Positions 4,492 through 10,085 of a DNA stretch of 10,085 nucleotides are shown piece by piece. This DNA is from Actinomycetes bacterium (GTDB lineage Bacteria > Actinomycetota > Thermoleophilia > RBG-16-64-13). A program made the position numbers and the translations under genes. Position 1 is the first letter of the stretch. The number at the start of each line of letters is the position of its first letter. The notes under the pieces are model-generated. The model made no database searches. It was not told the origin of the DNA and worked only from the letters and a program-made list of their open reading frames with translations. The DNA lies in contig JAKAHF010000032.1 in the NCBI GenBank assembly GCA_021815245.1, forward strand, positions 1-10,085. The letters are read 5' to 3'.

Positions 4492-4565
4492 CGGGACGTG
4501 GCGTAGTTTGGTAGCGCATCCGGCTGGGGGCCGGAAGGTCGCCAGTTCAAATCTGGCCGTCCCGA
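4492..4565 (+). tRNA. tRNA-Pro (anticodon GGG)
   Basis: A full cloverleaf can be drawn. The acceptor stem CGGGACG (4492-4498) pairs with CGTCCCG (4558-4564). The D arm is GCGT/GCGC-like (4501-4504 with 4514-4517) around AGTTTGGTA. The anticodon stem TCCGG/CCGGA (4519-4523 with 4531-4535) encloses the loop CTGGGGG, placing anticodon GGG at 4526-4528. The T arm is GCCAG/CTGGC (4541-4545 with 4553-4557) with loop TTCAAAT. The discriminator is A4565. The next bases are CTA, so CCA is not encoded and must be added by tRNA nucleotidyltransferase. The anticodon reads CCC, a codon used heavily in GC-rich genomes. The C1-G72 pair is typical of bacterial tRNA-Pro. Confidence 0.96.
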
Positions 4566-4571
4566 CTAACG

Positions 4572-4609: not shown

Positions 4610-5332
4610 CTAGTCGCCTGTTTCCCAGACGGCAGTTCCGTCGGCGAGGAGGGGCGAGTAGCTCACCGACACCACCGCCTTGCCCTTTGGAAGCTCGAAT
4701 CCCACGTATCCCTCGACCGTCTGACCGGGCTCTATGTCGCCCGAATCGAGGGCCTGGTTCTCGACATAGAGCGACGCGTCGTAGCTCGACCCGTCGGCAT
4801 CCGACGCGGTCCAGTAGAAGAGGTTGTAATCGCGCAGTTCGTCGCCCGAGTTCGTGATCTTCACATACACGATGTAGAGGTCCACATCCGCGCCGAGAAG
4901 CTCCTCAAGCGCCGCGTCGGTCAGAATCTCGGGAGCTCCGACGGTCATCACGGTCTGCCAGAGCTCCTGAGTAGCGCCGAAAGCGGCGACGGGGATAAGA
5001 TCGAGGAGCTCGCTCGTGGTGGTCGTCGACTCCTCGGAGGTGACGGCCGAAGGCGCGGTAGTGCCGGATTGCTCACCCGGACCGGCACCGGCGGCCGGCG
5101 TGTCCCCGTTCCCAACAAGAAGCCAAACCACCACTGCCGCGGCGGCAACGATGATGAAAGCGATCACCGCGATGAGCCAGGTCTTTCTGGTTCTCCGACG
5201 CGCCTCTGTGCGCGCACGGACAGGCTCGTTGAAGTCCTCGTGCCCCATCAGGGGCGTGCCGCAGGCGAAGCACGACTCGGCTTCTTGAGCGTTCTCTCTG
5301 CCACACCACGGGCAGTTCTTGCTCTGCGCCAC
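4610..5332 (-). CDS. Membrane-anchored zinc-ribbon protein with DUF4352-like extracellular domain
   Basis: A 240-residue protein of unknown function. Residues 7-24 form a zinc ribbon with two CxxC knuckles (C7/C10 and C21/C24; CPWC and CFAC). A basic stretch (R39-K50, [12 protein letters not shown]) precedes a single transmembrane helix at about 51-73, so the ribbon should be cytoplasmic and the C-terminus outside. A Gly/Ala/Ser/Thr/Glu-rich flexible linker (about 74-108) follows. Residues about 115-240 resemble the DUF4352/immunoprotective-antigen-like beta-sandwich: [15 protein letters not shown], the YNLFYW region, [17 protein letters not shown] and SVSYSPLL. The start is GTG 5332-5330, with GAGGG (5343-5339) 6 nt upstream. 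The gene stands alone and diverges from the nucleotidyltransferase fusion. The fold assignment is from pattern memory, and no function should be inferred beyond a surface-exposed anchored protein. Confidence 0.85.
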
Positions 5333-5368
5333 CTGCGACCCTCACTGCGTATGCTTGTCCCGGCCAAT

Positions 5369-5396
5369 ACGATACAGCCTCCTCAGAGGTTGTGCA
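5369..5396 (-). promoter_or_regulatory. Possible promoter of the zinc-ribbon gene
   Basis: On the minus strand, TGCACA (5396-5391) and TATCGT (5374-5369) are 16 nt apart, each matching consensus at 4 of 6 positions. The predicted start near 5362 would leave a 5' leader of about 30 nt containing the GAGGG ribosome site. The match is weak and placed mainly by position. Confidence 0.3.
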
Positions 5397-5452
5397 GCGA
5401 AGCCGAAAGCACACGGCTTGTCGAGTTCGACAGCTCCCCCGGCTTGTTCGCG

Positions 5453-5461
5453 TGCTAGGAT
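5453..5461 (+). promoter_or_regulatory. Possible extended -10 promoter of the nucleotidyltransferase fusion gene
   Basis: TGCTAGGAT at 5453-5461 fits the extended -10 form TGn-TAnnAT. It would give a start near 5468 and a leader of about 28 nt, with ribosome site GAGGAGG at 5484-5490. No credible -35 hexamer is seen at standard spacing. The remainder of the divergent region 5333-5495 shows no further gene or repeat. Confidence 0.4.
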
Positions 5462-5495
5462 TTTCGCATCAGGGAAAGCTGACGAGGAGGTCGCG

Positions 5496-8006
5496 GTGAA
5501 GGCAGTCATCATGGCCGGTGGCCAAGGCACCAGACTCCGCCCGCTGACATCCAACCAGCCCAAGCCCATGGTGCCGATCGTCAACAAGCCCTGCATCCAG
5601 CATATCCTCGAGCTGGTGCAGCGCCACGGCATCAACGAAGTCGTGATGACCCTGGCTTTCCTGCCGAGGCTCATCCGCAATCACTTCGGCGACGGCAGTA
5701 GTTTTGGCATGCGCATCGACTACACGGTCGAGGAGACCCCGGCCGGCACAGCGGGATCCATCCGTCTGGCCAAGGACCTGCTCGACGAAACGTTCGTAGT
5801 CATCAGCGGCGACGCGCTCACCGACTTCGATCTGACCAAGGTCATCGACTTTCACAAGCAACGCCAGGCCATGGTGACGATCGCGCTCAAGAGCGTCGAG
5901 AACCCCCTGGAATTCGGCGTGGTGATCGTCGACGAAGAGGGACGCATCGAGCGCTTCTTGGAAAAGCCCGGATGGGGGCAGGTGTTTTCCGACACAGTCA
6001 ACACGGGCATCTACGTACTCGAGCCGGAGATCTTCGACCACATCCCCGAGGGCCAGCCGTACGATTTCAGCCACGATCTCTTTCCCAAGCTGTTCGACAT
6101 GCACAAGCCGCTCTTCGGCACTGTGTGCGAAGGCTACTGGCAGGATATCGGGAGTCTCGAGCAGTTCCTTCAGGCGAACCGCGACGCGCTCGACGGCAAG
6201 GTGCGCCTCACCCCTCCGGGAGTCCGCCTTCGGGGCAACATCTGGGTGGGCCAGGGAGCCTCCCTCGAGAGTCTCGACGACGTGGAGGGCCCGGCGGTCA
6301 TCGGCGCCAACGCCCGCATCGAGGCGGCCGCGTCGGTGCTGTCTCACTCGATTCTCGGCGACAACACCGTCGTCCGGGCCGGCGCCCAGATAGGCGACTC
6401 GGTGCTCGGTGAGAACGTCTACCTGGCTTCGGGGTCGGTTGTTACCGGAGCGGTGCTCGGCAACGCGGTAGAGGTGCACGAGAACGCCAATATCGCCGAG
6501 GGGGTGGTGATCGGCGATCGCTCGGTCATCGGTCGCAATGCGGTCGTGGCCAACAAGGTCAAAGTCTATCCGTTCAAGAACGTGGAGCCAGGGTCCACGG
6601 TGCGCTCTTCGATCGTGTGGGAGACCCGCGGACCAAGCACTCTGTTCGGGCGCAGTGGCGTCAGCGGCCTCGCCAATGTCGACCTTACTCCCGAGATGGC
6701 GATGCGTCTCGCCATGTGCTACGGCACGCTCCTCACAAAGGGCGCCTATGTCACCACCAGCCGCGATACCCACCAGGCCTGCCGGGTGTTCAAGCGTGCC
6801 ATCATCAGCGGACTCAACGCCACAGGCATCAACGTCCGCGATCTCACGACGGCGCCTTTGGCGGTAAACCGCTTCGATATCAAGGGCGGCAATGCGATCG
6901 GCGGCATCCACGTGCAGATCAGCCTCGAGAACCCCGAGATCATCGAGATCCTTTTCTCCGAACCTCCCGGGGTCCCGATCGACGGGCGCAGAGAGCGCGC
7001 CATCGAGAATCACTACTTCAGGGAAGACTTCCGTAGGGCCCCGTTCGAGGAGATGGGGCAGGTCATGTATCCGCCCAGGGCGATCGAGACCTACACCAAC
7101 TCCCTGCTCGAGAACTGGAACACCGTGGCCATACGTGGGAGGCAGCCTCGTTTGGTGCTCGACTACTCGTCGTCGGCGCCGGCATTCTTCTTTTCCGCCA
7201 CACTCGACAAGCTTGGCGTTGAAACCATCGCGCTCAACACGTTCTCGCGAGTGAGGTCGCGCTTCACGCTCAGAGAGAGCCTGCCGGCGGCCGTGTCGCG
7301 AGTGGGGGAGATGGTCAAGGCCATGGAGGCCGATCTCGGGGCGATTCTCGATCCGGGTGCCGAGTACCTGTATGTCGTCGACGAGAAGGGCAACCTCATA
7401 TCAGATACGACGCTGCTCCTTCTCCTGCTGCAGCACGCCGCCCGCGAGGCGGGATCCGGCGTCGCGGCCCTGCCGCTGCACGCAACGCGGTTGGGCGAGC
7501 ACGTGGTTGCTTCGACCGGAGTGAGTATCAGGCGCACCAAGTACTCGAAAGCGGCGCTGATGGCCGAGGCCTCGCGGCCCAATACCGTGTTCTCGGCCAC
7601 CACCGACGGAGGCTATATCTACCCGTCGGTGCTGGCGTCGATGGACGGTTTGTTCGCCCTCGGCAAAGTCCTTGAACTGGTGTCTACGAACGATCAGCCG
7701 CTCTCGAGTCTCGTAGGCCGTATCCCGCAGGCCTTCCTCGCGCATCTCACGGCGGAGTGCCCGTGGGAGCAGAAGGGGGCTGTCATGCGCCAGATGACCG
7801 AGAGACTGCGCAGTGGTCGCGTCTCACTGGTCGACGGCATCAAGGTCTTCCTTGAGCATTCCGAGTGGGTTTTGGTGCTGCCCGACGCGGAAGAGCCGCT
7901 ATTTCACGTATATACCGAGGCCGCCAGCGCCGCTCGTGCGGACGAATTGGCCGAGGAGTATCGCGACATGGTGGCGGCAGCGGCAGGCGAGGGACGCGAG
8001 GAGTAG
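5496..8006 (+). CDS. Sugar-1-phosphate nucleotidyltransferase / beta-helix / phosphohexomutase-like fusion
   Basis: An 836-residue three-part protein. Residues 1 to about 235 are a nucleotidyltransferase that would join an NTP to a sugar-1-phosphate: [11 protein letters not shown] (8-18) with PKP at 22-24, metal site GDALTD (105-110), EKP (156-158) and YWQDIG (214-219). Residues about 245-370 carry hexapeptide repeats of a left-handed beta-helix. Residues about 380-836 have the fold landmarks of the phosphoglucomutase/phosphomannomutase family ([19 protein letters not shown], about 422-440), but its active-site loops are altered: no TASHNP (ISLENP-like, 475-480), DPGAEY (619-624) for DGDADR, no GEXSGH, and LPDAEEP (795-801) for RPSGTEP. 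The mutase half is therefore probably not a catalyst. GTG 5496 is chosen for GAGGAGG 5 nt upstream and because the nucleotidyltransferase fold starts there. Cyanobacterial and actinobacterial proteins of this length are usually named mannose-1-phosphate guanylyltransferases. The substrate (mannose-1-P or glucose-1-P) and nucleotide cannot be fixed here. Confidence 0.9.
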
Positions 8007-8076: not shown

Positions 8077-8661
8077 TCAGTTGCGCGAACTCTTGGCGAT
8101 GACTTGCTTGCAGACCGTCTTCAGCGTCTCGAAGACTCCGACACCGGTCAGGGCACAGGCTTCGACCACCGGCGAACCGGTGTGGTTGAGCAGCTCGGTC
8201 AGGTCGGCCACCGAGAAGATGGAACCAAGGTCGCGCTTGTTCATCTGCAGGACGATGCCCAGGTTGCCGGGATCCTCGTTCTGCTCCATGAGGTTGTCCC
8301 ACAGGTTGAGGTAGCTGTCGACGTTCTCGTCGAGACGCGAGATCTGGCTGTCGGCCACGAAGACCACTCCATCGACACCCTGCAACACGAGCTTGCGCGA
8401 AGCGTTGTAGAACGACTGGCCGGGTACGGTGTAAAGGTGGAAGCGCGTGCGGAGCCCCTTGACGGTTCCCAGCGACAGGGGGAGGAAGTCGAAATACAGC
8501 GTGCGTTCCTCTTCTGTGGCGATGCTCACCAGACGGCCACGAGCACTTGGGTTGACCCGGCGATGGATGTACTGGATGTTGGTAGTTTTGCCACAAAGCC
8601 CGCAGCCATAGTAGACGATCTTGTAGTTGATCTCTCTGGCTGCCAAGTTTATGAGTGCCAC
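8077..8661 (-). CDS. MglA-like Ras-superfamily GTPase
   Basis: A 194-residue small GTPase close to MglA along its whole length; in Myxococcus MglA switches cell polarity and powers motility. Visible elements: REINYKIVYYG lead-in (9-19), P-loop GCGLCGKTT (19-27), switch I region ATEEERTLYFDFLP (48-61), TVPGQ (78-82), FVADSQ (101-106), base-recognition NKRD (141-144) and a G5-like ALTG (170-173). R53 and Q82, the two catalytic residues I recall for Myxococcus MglA, occur at the same numbers, so GTP hydrolysis should be intact. The P-loop has Cys20 where most MglA have Pro. No lipidation signal or signal peptide is seen. The start is GTG 8661-8659 with AGGGAG (8673-8668) 6 nt upstream. It lies 18 nt behind the Roadblock gene, its likely regulator. 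Its cellular role in this organism is unknown; a link to type IV pili or polarity is inference. Confidence 0.93.
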   Translation of the reverse strand: MALINLAAREINYKIVYYGCGLCGKTTNIQYIHRRVNPSARGRLVSIATEEERTLYFDFLPLSLGTVKGLRTRFHLYTVPGQSFYNASRKLVLQGVDGVVFVADSQISRLDENVDSYLNLWDNLMEQNEDPGNLGIVLQMNKRDLGSIFSVADLTELLNHTGSPVVEACALTGVGVFETLKTVCKQVIAKSSRN

Positions 8662-8679: not shown

Positions 8680-9183
8680 CTATTCGCTTTGCGCAGGAAA
8701 CCAATCGTCGATGGCTGTGCCGGCTTCCCGCGAATACTCACGATCGATGAGTTGAGGAGTTTCGCCCCCAGAGGTTTCTTCGGCATCTTCAAAAATCGGC
8801 TTGAGTACCTCGAGTGCCCTGGATGTGTAGAGCCTGACTCTGCCGACCTGCGTGTCGTGCCCGAAGGTCAACAGGAGAAGAATCTGGTCGGTAACCTGCA
8901 TGACGTGGAGATTCGACTCCTTGCCCTCGTGGAAGAGGAGGGTGAATTCCTTCTCCCTAAGCACCTCGGCGAGTTGGCGAGTAGCGGCGAACGACCCGGC
9001 AGCCAGCGCGGCGAGCGACAGAGTGTCGGCGTCGACGTCGCTCGGCGTAGAGGTGATCGGCTGGCCGCTCGTCGAGATGAGCGCACAGAAATTGGATCCG
9101 CACACGCGCTGCAGCTTGCTGAGAACACCGTCGATCATCTGCATCTGCTCGTCATTGATGACGAGCCCTTTGCGACGTGCCAC
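8680..9183 (-). CDS. Roadblock/LC7 domain protein (MglB-like partner)
   Basis: A 167-residue protein whose residues about 12-135 form a Roadblock/LC7 domain: an amphipathic first helix (QMQMIDGVLSKLQRV), the strand-turn FCALISTSGQPITS (32-45), helix LSLAALAAGSFAATRQLAEVL (about 56-76), then strands FTLLFHEGK, NLHVMQV, ILLLLTF and the last helix RVRLYTSRALEVLKPIF. MglB-type members act as dimers and stimulate the cognate GTPase. About 32 C-terminal residues (acidic, EDAEETSGGE, ending DDWFPAQSE) extend past the domain. The start is GTG 9183-9181, because AAGGAGGG (9197-9190) is 6 nt upstream; the frame is open back to 9267, but that part precedes the likely transcription start. It is the first gene of a two-gene operon with the MglA-like GTPase. 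Confidence 0.9.
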   Translation of the reverse strand: MARRKGLVINDEQMQMIDGVLSKLQRVCGSNFCALISTSGQPITSTPSDVDADTLSLAALAAGSFAATRQLAEVLREKEFTLLFHEGKESNLHVMQVTDQILLLLTFGHDTQVGRVRLYTSRALEVLKPIFEDAEETSGGETPQLIDREYSREAGTAIDDWFPAQSE

Positions 9184-9218
9184 TGCAAACCCTCCTTCGG
9201 TGCTGTACGTGCCCACAC

Positions 9219-9224
9219 AGTATA
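9219..9224 (-). promoter_or_regulatory. -10 element of the Roadblock-GTPase operon
   Basis: TATACT on the minus strand (9224-9219) is the same hexamer as at the tRNA gene. The predicted start near 9212 gives a 28-nt leader containing AAGGAGGG. No -35 match is visible at 16-18 nt spacing. Confidence 0.5.
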
Positions 9225-9275
9225 CAACCGGCGGGGAGCGCGCACCCGCCGCCTCGAAGAGCCACAAAACCGCTG

Positions 9276-9319: not shown

Positions 9320-9703
9320 GTGAATCCTAAAAACCTCAAATACCACAGGGAGCACGACTGGGTGCGCATCGACGGTGATACCGCGACATTCGGTCTCACC
9401 AGCTACGCCCAGGAGACACTCGGTGACATCGTATTCATCGAACTCCCCGAGGTTGGCACGGACGTCACCGCTGGGACGCCCTACGCCGAGGTAGAGTCGG
9501 TGAAGGCGGTCTCCGACGTGTACGCGCCGATGAGCGGCTCGATCGTCGAGATCAACGAAGAAGTCGTTGACGCCCCCGAGATTATCAACGAGAGCCCGTA
9601 TGAAGATGGCTGGCTCATCAAGGTTCGTTTGAGCGACCCGTCTGAGGCCGATGATCTGATGACCGCGGCCGAGTATGACGAATTGCTCACGGAAGAGGAG
9701 TAA
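9320..9703 (+). CDS. gcvH: Glycine cleavage system H protein
   Basis: The 127-residue lipoyl carrier shuttles the aminomethyl group of glycine between the P, T and L proteins. The lipoylation site is K62 in AEVESVKAVSDVYAP (56-70), the family's ESVKA motif. The N-terminal HREHDWVRIDGD, TSYAQETLGDIVFIELPEVG (27-46) and ESPYEDGWLIKV (91-102) are also typical. Length is standard (about 125-130). The start is GTG 9320, with AAAGGAG (9308-9314) 5 nt upstream. The end is acidic (DELLTEEE). No gcvT, gcvP or lipoate ligase gene is adjacent, so the H protein is encoded apart from its partners, at least on the sides seen here. A role as carrier in lipoate relay is possible, but the sequence does not decide it. 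Confidence 0.97.
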   Translation: MNPKNLKYHREHDWVRIDGDTATFGLTSYAQETLGDIVFIELPEVGTDVTAGTPYAEVESVKAVSDVYAPMSGSIVEINEEVVDAPEIINESPYEDGWLIKVRLSDPSEADDLMTAAEYDELLTEEE

Positions 9704-9721: not shown

Positions 9722-9757
9722 TTGAAGGTGCTGTGGGCAGCCGGTATAGTGAAAGCA
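9722..9757 (+). promoter_or_regulatory. Promoter of the rsiG-like gene, giving a leaderless mRNA
   Basis: The hexamers TTGAAG (9722-9727) and TATAGT (9745-9750) are exactly 17 nt apart, the best sigma-A-type promoter in the window. Counting 7 nt from the end of the -10 puts the transcription start on 9757, the A of the ATG. No Shine-Dalgarno sequence precedes that ATG. The two facts together suggest a leaderless transcript, a common arrangement in actinobacteria. Confidence 0.6.
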
Positions 9758-10044
9758 TGAATGCTTTGGATGATTCATCCTTCGAGCGTCTCATCAAGAT
9801 CCAGTCGTACACCGACGAGGAGCTCAAGGCGCTCGCGGTGAAGTTGACCCAGGAGGAGCAGGAGGTTTCCATGAAACGCCGCTTGCTCCATGGCGAACTC
9901 GACATCGTCAGGGCTGAGATGGTACGCAGGCTGCGCGACAAGAACACAACCGGCTCGGGCATCGTGCAGCACGGTGATGTCGCCGCCTTGAGCGCAATCC
10001 TGAGCAACCGTGGAGGGAGCGGGGAACCACTGGGAGAGGAGTGA
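9757..10044 (+). CDS. rsiG: RsiG-like c-di-GMP-binding anti-sigma factor, single-motif form
   Basis: A 95-residue, mostly helical protein. Residues about 9-62 form one long charged helix suited to a coiled coil. It carries the RsiG signature E(X)3S(X)2R(X)3Q(X)3D as E34, S38, R41, H45 and D49, with His in place of Gln; the block RRLLHGELDIVRAEMVRR (41-58) is very like the RRLLQGRxDILRAEL of Streptomyces RsiG. From the literature as I recall it, RsiG with c-di-GMP sequesters the sigma factor WhiG; the Streptomyces protein has two motifs in one chain, whereas the Rubrobacter protein has one and works as a homodimer. One motif here points to the homodimer type. A loose Gly/Ser tail holds a second short helix (DVAALSAIL, 74-82). 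ATG 9757 is preferred to GTG 9733, which lies upstream of the predicted transcription start. No sigma gene lies in the window, so the target is inferred. Confidence 0.8.
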   Translation: MNALDDSSFERLIKIQSYTDEELKALAVKLTQEEQEVSMKRRLLHGELDIVRAEMVRRLRDKNTTGSGIVQHGDVAALSAILSNRGGSGEPLGEE

Positions 10045-10049
10045 TTCTG

Positions 10050-10085
10050 ATGAGCGATGACGTCGAACCCGTCGACGGGTTCGAC
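10050..10085 (+). CDS. Start of an unidentified gene, truncated by the window end
   Basis: ATG at 10050 opens a frame of 12 codons to the end of the window, reading MSDDVEPVDGFD. GAGGAG (10036-10041) lies 8 nt upstream and the gap to the rsiG-like stop is only 5 nt, so the gene is probably co-transcribed with it. The acidic N-terminus gives no family clue. Confidence 0.6.
   Translation, partial: MSDDVEPVDGFD

Follow-up and report, generated by a model that had tools for sequence, protein, structure and literature searches.

A single-motif RsiG between mglAB and pilus genes as a probable c-di-GMP-dependent regulator of WhiG in an uncultivated actinobacterial order

Close to its end, a 10,085-nucleotide stretch of actinobacterial DNA (contig JAKAHF010000032.1 of assembly GCA_021815245.1; hereafter, the window) encodes a small helical protein with the signature of the anti-sigma factor RsiG, which raises the question of whether this protein responds to c-di-GMP, which sigma factor it would hold and which genes would be its output. 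We consider it highly probable that the protein is a single-motif RsiG that is armed by c-di-GMP and holds WhiG off RNA polymerase, with pilus genes as the output. The basis for this account is homology and the signature motif in the window and, in relatives, co-occurrence, WhiG contact residues, gene neighbourhood and promoter-like sequences. The sigma factor, the cyclases and the promoters that figure in it are known only from relatives, and binding of c-di-GMP, dimer formation and sigma factor binding are predicted for the window RsiG from close analogues. The features of the window are listed in Table 1.

Table 1. Features of the 10,085-nucleotide window and the basis of their assignment
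Feature	Position	Strand	Basis
tRNA-Pro (ggg) gene	4492-4566		
Zinc-ribbon protein, DUF4352 domain	4610-5332	-	
Nucleotidyltransferase, hexapeptide-repeat and phosphomannomutase/phosphoglucomutase domains fused in one protein	5319-8006		
MglA-like small GTPase	8077..8661	-	Pfam Arf
MglB-like roadblock protein, probably with an internal true start	8680..9267	-	Pfam Robl_LC7
gcvH, glycine cleavage H protein, directly 5' of rsiG	9320..9703	+	Pfam GCV_H
rsiG, single-motif RsiG anti-sigma factor, 95 aa	9757..10044	+	ORF translation; Pfam PF22802; PDB RsiG matches
c-di-GMP signature E34-x3-S38-x2-R41-x3-H45-x3-D49	9856..9903	+	Translation; H45 codon 9889-9891
Gly-containing linker and C-terminal extension (about residues 62-95)	9941..10044	+	Alignment A3
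Start of small ORF directly 3' of rsiG, truncated where the window stops	10050..10085	+	Sequence

The protein is recognized by the RsiG family of Pfam with 53.5 bits and E=2e-14 (cut-off 27), while no other Pfam family matches at E<=1 and a search of NCBIfam gave zero matches. Among PDB chains, it matches 6pfj_T, which is Streptomyces venezuelae RsiG/AmfC, and 7lq2_B, 7lq3_B and 7lq4_D, which are Rubrobacter radiotolerans RsiG, and no others at E<=0.001. All five signature positions are at exact spacing, and in the alignment with 7lq4_D, R41 and D49 fall on Rubrobacter residues 66 and 74, i.e. on R66 and D74, by which the guanines are read in the solved complex (PMC8325347). The motif E-x3-S-x2-R-x3-[QH]-x3-D, the Q/H form of which has been published (PMC8325347), occurs only once in the six frames of the window, and this search gave no second RsiG motif. 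Such a motif arose in 53 of 200,000 shuffles of the window RsiG; the Pfam match is evidence of homology beyond the motif. In an alignment of P0001 with 39 chosen relatives (A3, 40 rows), all 40 proteins match Pfam RsiG and no other family at E<=0.001, and the E, S, R and D of the signature are invariant. An in-frame GTG 24 bases upstream is not supported as an alternative start; most aligned relatives begin near the annotated residue. Thus, the proposal of a sequence-only reading that this is an RsiG homologue with one motif, four of the five signature residues at exact spacing and H45 in place of Gln is borne out by the translation, by the Pfam and PDB matches and by the single motif in 95 residues, and the profile search that it had suggested places the protein in RsiG and in no unrelated coiled-coil family. 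At the level of sequence, we therefore regard the gene as a confirmed single-motif RsiG. By analogy with the Rubrobacter structure (PMC8325347), its residues from about 62 to 95 probably contact the sigma factor.

The same reading had taken the His at the Gln position as a change that might alter nucleotide affinity or specificity, and this part of it is not supported. In the best 120 of 132 matches at E<=0.001 (window RsiG included), E, S, R and D are exactly spaced in all 120 and position 45 is His in 112 and Gln in eight, a frequency that describes the clade rather than RsiG at large, since these best-ranked sequences are close relatives. In twin-motif RsiGs, Gln is often replaced by His in motif 1 (PMC8325347). 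Moreover, Conexibacter woesei RsiG, which has one motif and is of the His-type, has been reported to bind c-di-GMP and not c-di-AMP, with a Kd for c-di-GMP of 25 µM alone and 1.7 µM with WhiG; the Kd of the Gln-type Rubrobacter RsiG is 12 µM (PMC8325347). On these published binding data, we reject a His-driven change of nucleotide specificity. His in the window RsiG is thus ordinary, and because the Conexibacter woesei protein has been published (PMC8325347), the His-type is already known. The window protein is a further example of a described type of RsiG and was to be expected from the 2021 work.

If the protein is an anti-sigma factor, a partner and a source of c-di-GMP should be found in its relatives. 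The first three relatives, with an RsiG that is 67-74% identical, came from a scan of species genomes; all are actinobacterial metagenome assemblies, and RBG_16_64_13 is one of them. Our genome-level counts come from 18 relatives, taken from the order assigned to this genome (G002), for which completeness is not given. RsiG was detected in 17 of the 18 genomes and a WhiG/FliA-family sigma factor over the curated cut-off in all 18; in this search, G004 has WhiG and no RsiG match. The G002 sigma factor, the one copy of the 18 that was tested, scores 356.5 bits with the WhiG equivalog NF004935 (cut-off 343), and it matches Streptomyces WhiG with 296 bits versus 166 bits for FliA. Its gene adjoins what we take to be rpsB in the three loci with flanking frames read and, in the two loci that reach far enough, also what we take to be a xerC-like recombinase gene. 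In both solved complexes, the K-x3-G-R of WhiG region 2 touches c-di-GMP, and in Rubrobacter T, R and K residues of region 4 do so too (PMC8325347). The K-x3-G-R is kept in all 17 readable WhiG copies of the relatives (one of the 18 is truncated), and the full triplet is found in none of the three FliA chains among the alignments listed. As for c-di-GMP, GGDEF proteins are present in the three genomes tested (5, 9 and 8 each); the four whose loci were read all have an intact GGDEF motif, and three have an EAL-type motif. The sequence-only reading had stated that lack of a WhiG/FliA-like sigma factor or of a diguanylate cyclase would speak against it. Judged from sequence, and as far as the relatives represent the genome of the window, both appear to be present.

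The gene neighbourhood points to pili. In all 11 loci compared, which come from 11 of the 17 rsiG-bearing genomes (one more stretch, L090, duplicates the G002 locus), rsiG has mglAB on one side and pilBTC on the other, in the conserved order mglAB, gcvH, rsiG, small ORF, FHA protein, MerR regulator (FtsR family), apt, pilC, pilT and pilB, with apt not found in one of the loci; the gene families were tested on the window and on L002. The window covers the left half of this locus and ends just inside the small ORF, which is about 98 residues long in one relative and has a homologue at this place in all 11 loci. The small GTPase and the roadblock protein of the window, which we take to be MglA and MglB, are also conserved, the former with 77-96% identity across the 11 loci and the latter kept in all of them. 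Because gene order is well kept in this region generally, the neighbourhood alone is weak evidence. In the PilB encoded near rsiG in G002 (L002 14982-16712), a c-di-GMP-binding MshEN domain is present, and a model of MshE-related c-di-GMP binding matches the N-terminus. We infer that c-di-GMP may act on the pili twice, i.e. on transcription and on the motor.

Evidence for a WhiG regulon comes from promoter-like sequences in the relatives, for which we used the pattern TAAA-N15/16-GCCGATAA, with the reversed pattern as a control. Without mismatches, it occurs 19 times in 13 of the 18 genomes, and the control three times. Four of these perfect promoters precede type IV pseudopilin genes, two FlgM-like genes, five gatC-like genes and two a small Cys-rich protein, while six are without a clear target; the targets were tested with Pfam on one or two examples per kind, and several of the 19 fall inside long frames on either strand. 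The gatC-like genes, for a tRNA amidotransferase, are in L042, L045, L046, L048 and L052, which come from five genomes, with GatC confirmed by Pfam only in L052. The Cys-rich protein, of about 105 residues and with no confident Pfam family, is directly behind the promoter in L044 and L055, from two genomes.

Pilin and pseudopilin genes were then considered as a set, comprising 30 loci found with one pseudopilin query, with up to two mismatches allowed upstream. A WhiG-type promoter was found at 21 of the 30 loci, or at 17 of 26 without the four loci (L098, L099, L106 and L117) that had first been found via the promoter itself; it was absent from nine of the 30, and the reversed control matched at one of 30. 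Among the orthologues, eight of 12 have the promoter, with no control match; 200 Markov simulations gave 0.18 on average and 2 at most. The remaining 18 loci gave 13 promoters and one control match, and the promoter-bearing genes among them include some with a major pilin sequence; five of these 13 loci were simulated (mean 0.09), so that the simulations cover the 12 orthologues and five other pilin or pseudopilin loci. The window, the rsiG neighbourhoods and the whiG loci were scanned as well. The window has no promoter with up to one mismatch and one with two mismatches, equal to the control; the 11 rsiG neighbourhoods gave one match with one mismatch versus one control match; and the 18 whiG loci gave none with up to one mismatch. 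Therefore, membership of rsiG and whiG themselves in the regulon is not supported.

The FlgM-like genes add a second candidate regulator of the same sigma factor. Pfam FlgM (PF04316) matches in seven of the 18 genomes at E<=0.001, four of them over the cut-off, and a profile built from eight FlgM-like proteins matches in 12 of 18, of which four (in G001, G002, G016 and G018) were absent from the profile; we left out a second, weak match in G010, which had E=0.006, lay within a longer reading frame and was not preceded by the promoter. The C-terminal region of these proteins matches PF04316 weakly (18.8-30.5 bits). All 12 genes (L128-L139, and for instance L095 1438-1695) are preceded by a WhiG-type promoter sequence with a spacer of 16 and up to two mismatches, 11 of them with up to one. 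The reversed control matched at none of the 12, and 200 simulations averaged 0.2 and never exceeded 2. Two of the twelve (in G006 and G017) were noticed first via the promoter search and ten are free of this circularity, and the genes are related and hence not independent events, though their spacers differ. In a first scan of seven FlgM-like genes, in which a spacer of 14 was also allowed, there was one control match. The sequence match suggests that the FlgM-like gene is expressed from a sigma-28-type promoter, and a second brake on the same sigma factor is likely in this lineage. Six genomes, including G013 with rsiG on a 4.6-Mb contig, have no FlgM-like match, and the second brake is therefore not universal.

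With the FlgM family, these proteins share the C-terminal region, if weakly, and the sigma-28-type promoter sequence. Export of FlgM runs through the flagellum; by contrast, none of the 18 genomes, of which completeness is not given, has an FlhA match, and flagellar export of the FlgM-like protein is therefore not expected. Flagellin was found in none of the three genomes tested. There is a precedent in Legionella oakridgensis, which has FlgM and FliA without flagella (PMC5655016). According to a 2023 study, FlgM is missing from the later flagellated classes, unlike the basal ones, and Thermoleophilia is one of the classes in which many species are flagellated (PMC10746217). Our literature search did not find FlgM and RsiG together in any one paper, and the word FlgM is absent from the main text of the paper on Rubrobacter RsiG (PMC8325347).

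Could RsiG act on another sigma factor? In six of the 11 loci (L082-L087), pilC and the rsiG block are separated by a gene for a SigB/F/G-related sigma factor, and in several genomes the contig with rsiG carries another sigma factor gene at a distance of about 12-16 kb. The one copy tested of the latter is over the SigB/F/G cut-off; that of the pilC-adjacent protein, with 178.7 bits, is below the cut-off of 234. On proximity, RsiG might thus act on a SigB/SigF-like sigma factor rather than on WhiG. However, the pilC-adjacent gene was not found at this place in the other five loci, including L001-L003, which were found with the window RsiG itself, and the full K-x3-G-R that all 17 readable WhiG copies have is present in none of the six pilC-adjacent sigma factors. 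Nor is it complete in any of 14 copies of the more distant, SigB/F-like sigma factor, of which four have the Lys alone and all 14 the last Arg. Since WhiG is, in addition, the partner of the published single-motif RsiGs (PMC8325347), we judge action on such a neighbour to be quite improbable.

It is about as improbable, or slightly more so, that the protein is a degenerate or repurposed RsiG-like coiled coil in which c-di-GMP binding has been lost. The Gln-to-His change could be read in this way, as could position 47, which is mostly Glu and not Arg, but the four other signature residues do not vary across A3 (40 rows) and are exactly spaced in 120 of 120 (the best 120 of 132 matches), and the His-type Conexibacter RsiG binds the nucleotide (PMC8325347). 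Finally, composition alone can give matches for short helical proteins, and the motif might have arisen by chance in an unrelated coiled-coil protein. To this we assign almost no probability: the match to the Pfam RsiG profile at E=2e-14 refutes it, and RsiG is the sole Pfam family that the A3 proteins, all 40 of them, match at E<=0.001.

In the model in which a single-motif RsiG controls WhiG, RsiG, as a predicted antiparallel homodimer loaded with c-di-GMP, would bind the cell's own WhiG-type sigma factor and keep it off RNA polymerase, and the pili would be turned down. When c-di-GMP falls, WhiG would be freed and would transcribe from promoters resembling TAAA-N15/16-GCCGATAA, the targets of which, going by the relatives, would include genes for type IV pilins and pseudopilins and also, in 12 of the 18 genomes, the FlgM-like gene. 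The closest described counterpart is Conexibacter woesei RsiG, which likewise has one motif and His at the Gln position (PMC8325347). This species, of the Thermoleophilia, belongs to the same phylum as the window and probably, by the source-given names of relatives of the window RsiG, which include Thermoleophilia bacterium, to the same class, whereas the order of the window is a different, uncultivated one; the two proteins are likened here by published description. Rubrobacter radiotolerans RsiG (7lq2, 7lq3 and 7lq4), which aligns over residues 15-58, also has a single motif, and WhiG is tied to type IV pili in both lineages, but it has Gln rather than His and 118 residues rather than 95. 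Position 47 is mostly Glu in the relatives of the window RsiG (A3), and both Rubrobacter RsiG and motif 1 of the Streptomyces protein have Arg there; therefore, the sigma factor interface is not identical to theirs. Streptomyces venezuelae RsiG/AmfC (6pfj) has the same motif and helix, and both of its halves align with the window RsiG, but it is a twin-motif monomer that serves sporulation control. In Streptomyces, a phosphodiesterase can antagonize RsiG at WhiG, as reported in a 2026 paper (PMC13232838).

We give roughly even chances to the further possibility that two unrelated anti-sigma factors, RsiG and an autogenous FlgM-like protein, act on one WhiG in cells that apparently have no flagella and in which type IV pili are the output, as a surviving intermediate between FliA-FlgM and RsiG-WhiG. 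With two such brakes, RsiG armed by c-di-GMP would set when WhiG may act, while the FlgM-like protein, made from a WhiG-type promoter, would give negative feedback on the WhiG that has been freed.

A role of WhiG and RsiG in type IV pilus formation has been proposed for Rubrobacter (PMC8325347). The promoter sequences and the gene order reported here extend this role to another lineage. If the account with two anti-sigma factors is true, this lineage preserves a stage midway between flagellar control by FliA and FlgM and the RsiG-WhiG switch. FlgM-like genes stand behind WhiG-type promoters here in genomes with RsiG but without a detected flagellum, which makes it testable how a flagellar sigma factor exchanged an exported anti-sigma factor for a c-di-GMP-sensing one.
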